Positions 26,372 to 30,840 of a stretch of 64,000 nucleotides of DNA are shown in pieces. Position numbers and translations under genes: made by a program. The DNA comes from Alphaproteobacteria bacterium (GTDB taxonomy: Bacteria > Pseudomonadota > Alphaproteobacteria > Rhodospirillales > Casp-alpha2): contig JAJRRU010000022.1 in NCBI GenBank assembly GCA_024279135.1, positions 62,001-126,000 on the forward strand. Direction: 5' to 3'. How positions within the stretch are numbered: position 1 is the first letter of the stretch; each line of letters opens with the position of its first letter. The notes under the pieces are model-generated. The model had not been told where the DNA came from, searched no databases, and worked only from the letters and a program-made list of their open reading frames with translations.

Positions 26372-27787
26372 TTATGCCTGGGTATTAAGGGCGTCCTTGA
26401 TGCGGACAAGGGTTTCATCCTTGCCTAATAATGCCATCACATCAAATATTGGTGGTGAAACGGTTGACCCACTGAGCGCGGCTCGCAGTGGTTGAGCAAT
26501 CTTGCCAAGTTTGATGGCCGGGTCATGTTGATCACCATAAGCACGGATATGTGCCTCGATGGTTTCGGCTTCCCATGAAGCCAGTTTATCCAGGGATGAA
26601 GTTAGATTTGATAAATGTGAACAACCTGCCTCATCCAGTTGTGCCCGGGCCTTGTCAGTAAATTCAAGGGGGCTGGAATTAAAATAAAATTGTGCAGAAT
26701 CAGATAGTTCATTAATATTCTTCGCGCGACCCTTTAAGCCGTGCATGGCGCGTGTAAGCAAATCCATCTCACCATCGTTTAAGTCCTTGCCGCGATTATC
26801 GGCGATAGTGGGTGCGATCATCCGGGCCAGTTCGCCATCATCACCATGGCGGATATAGTGGCCGTTCAGGTTGGTCAGCTTGGTAATATCAAAACGCGAC
26901 GCCGAGCGGCCAATGCTTTCGAGATTAAACCATTCAATGGCCTGTGCGGTACTGATGATTTCCTCATCGCCATGGGCCCAGCCAAGCCGGAGCAGGTAAT
27001 TTCGTACCGCAGCAGGCAGGAACCCCTGGTCGCGATAGGCATCAACACCCAGGGCACCGTGGCGTTTCGATAATTTGGCACCATCGGGGCCGTGGATCAG
27101 CGGGATATGGGCAAATTCCGGTATATCCCAACCGAGCGCCACATAGAGCTGGTACTGGCGAGAAGCATTGGTCAGGTGGTCATCGCCCCGTATTACGTGG
27201 CTAACCGCCATGTCATGATCGTCAACCACCACGGCCAGCATATAGGTCGGTGTGCCGTCTGCGCGCAGCAGGATCATGTCATCCAGGGTTTCATTGGCGA
27301 CCCGGACCTCGCCCTGGACCAGATCTGTGATCACGGTTTCACCCTCAAGCGGTGCTTTCAGGCGAATAACCGGCTCCACTCCATCCGGTGCGTCCGCGGG
27401 CTCACGATCACGCCACCGTCCATCATATTTCCAGGGCTTGCCAGCGGCACGGGCGGCTTCTCGCATTTCGGTCAGCTCTTGCTTGCTGCAATAACACCGG
27501 TATGCCTTGCCTTGTTCCAACAGGGACAGGGCGACCTGGCGGTGGCGATCAACACAGGAGAATTGGGAAACTGCCTCACCGTCCCAGTCCAGCTCCAACC
27601 ACGTCAGCCCTTCGTAAATAGCCTCCACGGCGTCCTGGGAGGAACGCTTGCGATCGGTATCCTCGATGCGTAACAGAAATTTTCCCTGATGATGTCGTGC
27701 AAACAACCAGTTGAATAATGCGGTACGAGCCCCACCAATATGCAGGTAGCCAGTAGGTGAGGGGGCGAAACGGGTAACGACAGTCAT
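26372..27787 (-). CDS. gltX: Glutamate--tRNA ligase
   Basis: A class I aminoacyl-tRNA synthetase, 471 residues. The ATP-binding HIGH-type motif is HIGG at 16-19 ([17 protein letters not shown]) and the KMSKS-type loop is KLSKRHG near residue 245. Alphaproteobacteria often have two GltX proteins, one sometimes relaxed for tRNA-Gln. Which kind this is cannot be told from the sequence alone. Confidence 0.95.
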
Positions 27788-27884: not shown

Positions 27885-30110
27885 GTGCAATATAAATGGC
27901 GCGATTTTGTGAAATATTTAACATTTAAAGAAAATAATCCTAAAATTTCTATTGCGGTGCACAGTCACGGCCATTCCGGTCGTCCCGGTTTATTTGGGGT
28001 CGAAGGAGGGCTCTATCAAGATTATCATCGTTGGATATTATGGTTTCCGGTGTTGATGGCCGTGGGTATCGGGTTGTATTTCTCGTTAACTTCTGAACCG
28101 GCGTGGGGCCTCGGCATCACTCTTTTCAGCGTGTTTCTGGTGGCCGCGTGGATGTTTAACAAAAATCACGTCTGGTTCCTTTTATTGGTCGCTTTTTGTA
28201 CGATATCCCTCGGGTTTACCGCAGCCCAGTTCCGCACCATGAACCTGGCGACTATCACATTGCAACGCAGCATTGGCCCGGTGAGTGTGTCGGGCCGCGT
28301 GGTTGCCATTGAAATCATGCCCACCGGGTCCCGCATTATGCTGGAAAAACTGAATATCGATGGCAAAATTAAAGCCTATGAGATTCCCCAAAAAGTACGC
28401 ATCCGGGTCAACACGTCCAAGGGTGAAGCCTTGCAGCCCGGCGATTGGGTCGATGTCTATGCGGTCTTGCGTCCTCCATCACCACCAGCAAGCCCCAATG
28501 CCTTTGATTTTCAGCGTTACGCCTATTTCAAGGGGATCGGGGCATACGGGTTTTCCTATAGCGCGCCGGTTATTATAAAAAAATCAGGTCAGGATGCGGA
28601 CTTGCAATCATTCGATATCTTGCAATCACGCTTGCGCCAGTTGGTCAGTACCCGCATTCGAAATGTCCTGCCGGGCGAGACCGGTATGGTTGCAACGGCA
28701 CTGATCACGGGTGAAAAGAAGGGTATCCCACGTGATATTTTTGAGGCCATGCGAGACGCCGGACTGGCCCATTTGCTGGCAATTTCAGGCCTGCACATCG
28801 GGTTGATAGCCGGACTGGTGTTTTTTATGGTTCGTGCCGGCCTTGCCATGATACCCGCAATTGCGGTGCGATACCCGATCAAGACATGGGCGGCAATCAG
28901 CGCCCTTGTGGCAGCACTGGGTTATACCATCCTTGCCGGGTCAACAATTCCGACCTTGCGGGCCTTCACCATGATGGCCTTGGTACTGGGGGCCATTGTT
29001 CTGGGTCGTCGGGGCATCACCTTGCGCCTGGTTGCCTTTGCCGCCGCCATAATTTTGTTATTCCAGCCGGAAAGCTTGCTGAGCGCCAGTTTCCAGTTAT
29101 CCTTTGCTGCCGTTACGGGGCTGGTTGCTTGTTATGAGGAAATCTCGCAGCGGTATTACCAATCTGCACGGGATCGACATTTTATGATCCGCTTTTTATA
29201 TTATTTGTTTGGCATCGCACTGACCACCGTGATTGCCGGGCTGGCGACCGCCCCTTTTGTCGCCTTCCATTTCCACCAAATAGCGAGTTATGGCAATATT
29301 TCCAACCTGGTGGCCATACCCCTGACGGCCTTGTGGATCATGCCGAGCGCGCTGTTAGGCATGATATTAATGCCGCTGGGGCTGGAAGCCATTGGGTTTG
29401 CCGTCATGGGGTGAGGTATTGAGGCCCTGATTTATTCTGCCCGATCCGTTGCCGATCTGCCCGGTAATGTTCAGATTATGCCAGCTTTTTCCACATTTTC
29501 CATGGTTGTCATGGTGATCGGGGCCTTATGGGTGTGCCTTTGGCAGAGCAATATTCGCTGGCTTGGTGTCACCGCCATCGCCGCCGGGCTCGTGCTTGCC
29601 ATATCCACACCGCAACCGGTATTGCTGGCTGGCAACAATGCCAGTTTGTTTGCCATACAGGACCACAAGGCCATCACCGTGCTGGGGCCGGGGGCTAATG
29701 CCAACCGGTTCGTGCGTGGCATCTGGGTTGAACGGGCCGGATATCTGAAACAACAAAAACACGGCAGCAAAAATGCCGCCCTCAGCGAAACCATCAAATG
29801 TGACACCCTGGGGTGTATGTTTCAGAAAAATGGCCTGACCATCGCCCTGGTCTGGCAGGAAGCCGCTTTGAGCGAGGATTGCTGGGTCGCCGATATTATC
29901 ATCAGCCGTGTTCCGGTGCGTGGAGATTGTTCCAAACCCCAATATGTTATTGACCGATATGATTTATGGAAAAATGGCGCTCACGCCCTATATCTGGACG
30001 GGCAACGGGTAAAAATCGTCAGCACCACCGACGTGCGCGGTACTCGTCCATGGACAGTCATACCGTCACCACGTCGTAACCGCAGTCCATCTTCAGGTCT
30101 GGCTAGTTAG
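27885..30110 (+). pseudogene. comEC: comEC, DNA-uptake channel gene interrupted by one in-frame TGA
   Basis: Homologous to ComEC/Rec2, the membrane channel for single-stranded DNA uptake. The GTG at 27885 opens a frame that stops at TGA 29412-29414 after 509 residues. The same frame then runs on, open, to 30110 (740 residues if the TGA is skipped). The competence domain, with AHLLAISGLHIGL and about ten helices, is in the first part; the last hydrophobic segment and the soluble C-terminal domain are beyond the stop. The codon sits in MG-stop-GIEAL, where a Trp (TGG) is expected. No other lesion is seen. Confidence 0.85.
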
Positions 30111-30117
30111 TACCGTC

Positions 30118-30840
30118 TCAATAACGCCGGAACAGGCCCACAAGCCGTCCTTGAACCTTGACCTGATCGGGGCCACAGATTCTGGTTTTGTATGCCGCAT
30201 TGGCTGGTTCAAGGGCTATGGAATTACCCTTGCGGCGCAAGCGTTTCAGAGTAACTTCCATATCATCGACGAAGGCCACCACGATGGTGCCGTTTTCTGC
30301 ATTGTCACAGCGGGCGATAATTACCGTATCACCGTCGTGTATGCCGGCTTCGATCATGGAATCGCCTTCAACTTCCAGGGCGTAATGCTCGCCAGAGCCC
30401 AGCATGGAAGGCGGGATATCGATCATGGATGTCGGGTCGCTTAGGGCCTCGATCGCCGTACCGGCTGCGATCCTGCCATAAAGGGGTAACTGTACCGTCG
30501 GGGAGCCATTGACCTGGGATGGTGTATGTTGTTTGAATTTACCGCTTACGATGTTGGACTCTATTCCAACGGGTTGATTGCTTGTTTGTTGTACAGAAGA
30601 CAGAGAGGCTGGTACGGGACGAACATCTTCCGGTAATTTGAGGATTTCCAGGGCTCTGGCCCGGTGGGGCAGGCGGCGGATAAAGCCACGTTCCTCTAAC
30701 CCGGTAATCAGGCGGTGAATACCGGATTTTGAGCGCAACCCCAGCGCCTCTTTCATTTCATCGAATGAGGGTGATACGCCATTATGGGAAAGCCTGGTTT
30801 CTATAAAACGTAGCAGCTCATACTGTTTTTTTGTTAACAC
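30118..30840 (-). CDS. lexA: LexA repressor
   Basis: SOS-response repressor and self-cleaving serine peptidase of 240 residues. The N-terminal winged helix (about 1-65) has [23 protein letters not shown]. The cleavage site is Ala126-Gly127 (GRIAAG), and the catalytic dyad is Ser161 (GDSM) with Lys199 (EVTLKRL). A long Ser/Gln-rich linker (70-115) is typical of alphaproteobacteria. A GTTC-N7-GTTC box lies upstream, indicating autoregulation. It converges on comEC with only 7 nt between. Confidence 0.95.

Follow-up and report, generated by a model that had tools for sequence, protein, structure and literature searches.

One in-frame TGA interrupts the comEC gene of this alphaproteobacterium at codon 510, two thirds of the way along. 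The gene was probably inactivated recently (a probability of roughly 0.7), by a nonsense mutation in a Trp codon; this young allele would be either fixed or strain-specific. The window, i.e., the whole stretch of 64,000 nucleotides that was analysed, is part of contig C31 of a draft genome (3.65 Mb, 39 contigs, 98% complete).

Table 1. Position of comEC, its interrupting codon and its neighbours in the window
Feature	Coordinates	Strand	Description
comEC, N-terminal part	27885..29414	+	begins at GTG and runs for 509 codons up to the TGA; contains the OB-fold (DUF4131) and the larger share of the Competence channel domain; Pfam Competence 1.2e-59, DUF4131 3.5e-20
In-frame TGA, codon 510	29412..29414	+	site is TGG in 88/125 homologous loci
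Rest of comEC, same frame	29415..30110	+	231 codons, TAG at 30108-30110; encodes the remainder of the interrupted helix, two further putative membrane helices and the C-terminal beta-lactamase-like domain
ORF that an annotator could call separately	29478..30110	+	first ATG/GTG/TTG past the stop, 21 codons downstream; 210 aa
gltX-like glutamyl-tRNA synthetase gene, intact	26372..27787	-	divergent upstream neighbour of comEC
lexA, intact	30118..30840	-	convergent downstream neighbour of comEC

The GTG start, the TGA and the reading frame lie exactly where a preliminary description of this DNA had placed them, and the local context is M-G-stop-G-I-E. The open continuation reported there also exists, although it has 231 sense codons; the 232 given earlier included the terminal TAG. 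A single frame runs through the whole of comEC, which rules out a frameshift and leaves one nonsense codon, as had been proposed. The codon score was 0.189 bits per codon before the stop and 0.163 after it, whereas the other two forward frames scored -0.28 to -0.38, and GC3 was 0.573 past the stop versus 0.591 before it. When the TGA was read through, the Pfam Competence match was extended from residues 273-503 to 273-554, and its score rose from 202 to 226 bits (a gain of ~23 bits; E-value from 1.2e-59 to 1e-66). Relatives with 35-53% identity also aligned through the codon to the C-terminus. Together with the coding-like codon score, these alignments confirm the ComEC character of the part beyond the stop.

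Both the Competence channel domain (PF03772) and the N-terminal OB-fold domain DUF4131 (PF13567) are present in this protein. The equivalog cut-off of NCBIfam TIGR00361 was not reached (164 vs 190 bits), and the assignment to the ComEC family is therefore based on the Pfam domains and the structure. Foldseek with the whole read-through model gave no match under E 0.001; the NMR structure of a ComEC OB-domain (9iew) was among the rows returned, with a probability of 0.97 and an E-value of 0.2.

To learn what relatives carry at codon 510, we used all fetched loci that cover it, 125 in number, at least three of which represent the same contig present in two collections. The codon was TGG in 88 loci, another sense codon in 36 and a gap in one, and no locus had a stop; hence Trp, which had been expected at this site, is favoured there and not invariant. 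In the nearest genera the codon was TGG (G002 and G015) or GTG (G013). None of the 125 loci encodes Cys at this position, and no homologue ends there. The preliminary description had named close homologues with a natural end at this residue as the observation that would overturn it, and a natural C-terminus followed by a separate gene is ruled out, because relatives align past codon 510 with no stop at it. Of 61 genomes searched with the read-through ComEC, 54 gave a match, as did 187 of the 198 genomes of the order, counting its own. In the second genome of the genus (G001) only residues 525-740 are present, at a contig edge, and this fragment, which does not reach codon 510, is open and ∼60% identical. 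There the comEC part is followed by a cysK-like gene and then by lexA, so that lexA lies near comEC in both genomes. A search of genome contigs for close strains gave no match with the single protein as query, and with an alignment as query it returned relatives at 34-44% only. In the same family, comEC was without a match in five genomes that are 91-96% complete (G009, G010, G017, G022 and G196), so this family may lose comEC more often than other members of the order do. In a Rhodospirillaceae bin (L059, 2501-5683), a short additional segment that matches ComEC residues 289-359 was found ∼0.9 kb past the intact gene.

The part of the protein that lies beyond the stop was analysed on an AlphaFold2 model of the read-through product (mean pLDDT 88, pTM 0.88). 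In this model residue 510 falls inside a helix (501-523), which is followed by helices 537-552 and 556-573 and then by a domain comprising residues 578-715. By analogy with the family, these three helices are predicted to span the membrane. VIA-align matched the domain to 9ic4, a crystal structure of the beta-lactamase-like domain from Moorella glycerini ComEC, with a Z of 9.7 over 133 residues at 2.9 Å. Pfam gave no match in this domain, and its beta-lactamase-like identity comes from structure only. The HxHxDH motif was absent from this protein and from 40 relatives, so that in this group the C-terminal domain probably does not act as a metal nuclease. HxHxDH is not required of all ComECs, and some are known in which the nuclease domain is inactive or missing (PMC12455585). 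In the 41-sequence alignment of this alphaproteobacterial group the domain (window 29619-30107) has four near-invariant cysteines (639, 644, 666 and 682, in 39-41 of 41 sequences), and its Trp 614 is invariant. One possibility is that disulphides hold this domain together and that it is no nuclease.

The age of the lesion was addressed with a 26-ComEC tree, for which the pre-stop and post-stop parts were each given their own fit. For the post-stop part, the path length to L006 was 1.85 for this ComEC, compared with 1.86, 1.84 and 1.76 for sister genera, and the pre-stop path to outgroups likewise matched that of the sister genera. Within the genus, the comparison with G001 over the post-stop part gave a dN of 0.31; dS was saturated even at this distance, and dN/dS is thus without use. 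Every conserved residue checked past the stop is kept. The tree thus showed no acceleration that would indicate relaxed constraint, a sign expected only in an old pseudogene. Since there is no acceleration and the conserved residues are kept, any loss is recent on this scale. That the gene shows no additional decay would be expected of a very young allele and, to the same degree, of a sequence error. As in a nonsense pseudogene, the in-frame stop is absent from homologues and the frame past it is open and conserved.

The genetic code of this genome was examined as well. Thirty-six of 101 long open segments end in TGA, while their Trp residues are encoded by TGG (499 codons), and RF2 is present. 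ARAGORN found 34 tRNAs, among them a single tRNA-Trp, with anticodon CCA. No anticodon reading UGA was found among the 34, from which a few ordinary tRNAs are missing in the assembly, and no tRNA-Sec scored over threshold in the genome, the weak matches falling on ordinary tRNAs. tRNAs for Tyr and Ile are absent from this set, as is Ala-TGC, so that rRNA operons and part of the tRNA clusters are probably missing from the assembly. An alternative code or selenocysteine insertion was ruled out by the TGA terminators, RF2, the CCA anticodon and the lack of a tRNA-Sec over threshold. When 221 kb of this genome were screened for coding continuations, comEC stood out most clearly as a long gene that is broken in frame and whose next start lies far off; the screen is rough, and its other rows, judged by eye, look like same-frame neighbouring genes or antisense shadows.

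The main rival to a young nonsense allele is a consensus or assembly error, in which case the cells would carry a sense codon and comEC would be intact. We regard this as unlikely, but it carries some weight: the lesion is one substitution, with no other lesion and no faster downstream evolution, and some essential tRNAs, such as those for Tyr and Ile, were not found in the 39-contig draft assembly. Against it, the rough 221-kb screen turned up no second long gene that is as clearly broken in frame, so that such errors are not common in this genome, and substitution-type consensus errors are rare in short-read data. It is improbable that the near-cognate tRNA-Trp reads the UGA and yields some full-length ComEC, with the truncated form in excess. 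Trp is among the residues inserted when UGA is read through, and the downstream part has been under long-term constraint; recent loss, however, explains that constraint equally well. No relative has a stop at codon 510 (0 of 125 loci), so there is no conserved programmed stop. No suppressor was found among the 34 tRNAs, and basal readthrough would give only traces of product. The readthrough that the preliminary description had listed among its options thus gained nothing positive in this genome with its standard code and no suppressor or Sec tRNA found, whereas recent loss or a strain polymorphism, also listed, fits best, with no second lesion, no post-stop acceleration and the conserved residues kept.

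That residues 1-509 and the ORF starting at 29478 are two cooperating proteins is very improbable. An ATG does follow the stop after 21 codons and opens 210 codons, but in the AlphaFold2 model the break cuts through a predicted membrane helix instead of falling between domains, a start at 29478 would forfeit the remainder of that helix, and no homologue has a stop at codon 510. A real and used stop, whereby low-level UGA readthrough or a cooperating split protein keeps ComEC activity scarce and the lineage tunes DNA uptake through a leaky stop, is also improbable. The chance that TGA stands for Trp or selenocysteine here is negligible: codon 510 does align with Trp, but no relative has Cys there, and the code and tRNA results above contradict recoding, apart from the gap left by a few tRNAs that the assembly lacks.

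If comEC carries a young nonsense allele, a single substitution would have turned a conserved Trp codon into TGA. The product would be 509 residues long, would stop partway through a predicted membrane helix and would be missing the last two such helices and the beta-lactamase-like domain. A protein cut in mid-helix in this way is unlikely to work and should not form a functional DNA channel, so that any uptake of free DNA would probably be lost in this strain. The dprA and comM genes and a comF-like gene, whose match is below the family cut-off, are all open in this genome and would persist beside the broken gene. Rhodobacter capsulatus uses ComEC, ComF, ComM and DprA to receive DNA from gene transfer agents (PMC10883770). 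The gene transfer agent TIM-barrel gene (PF13547) had no match in this genome, and all secretin matches for PilQ were sub-threshold.

A nonsense mutation of this type is readily supplied by mutation, since the 17 Trp codons of the present comEC coding sequence account for 34 of the 66 transitions that would create a stop in it. The most likely reading is an ordinary loss of a gene, and nothing points to a new mechanism. If the base is real, then: i) this is a clean and very young loss of comEC in a lineage that keeps other competence genes, and ii) it adds a small data point on how frequently DNA uptake is lost and on the use of dprA and comM in cells without comEC. For annotation, both pieces should be joined as one interrupted comEC.

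Relative to the ComEC/Rec2 DNA-uptake channel, the gene studied here encodes the same two Pfam domains (PF03772 and PF13567) in the same order, but is interrupted by a stop at codon 510; its C-terminal domain is short, as are those of its relatives, and the HxHxDH metal motif is found in none of them (0/41). Broken comEC copies also occur among the relatives. L008 (TGA at 75) and L087 (TAG at 188) resemble the present case in having one in-frame stop at a Trp-favoured position with the frame open on both sides; their stops lie at codons other than 510, and they are hence independent events, although the true start of L008 may lie after its stop. L048 carries TAG at 50 and 75 plus a frame change, and L044, L046 and L049 have two-frame copies or a large internal deletion. 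In Piscirickettsia salmonis, comEC is broken in all genomes while dprA, comM and other competence genes are intact (PMC12955456), a likeness to the genome described here. The breaks themselves differ: in P. salmonis, transposable elements with deletions, frameshifts and stops affect all strains, whereas here one substitution is seen in one genome (PMC12955456).
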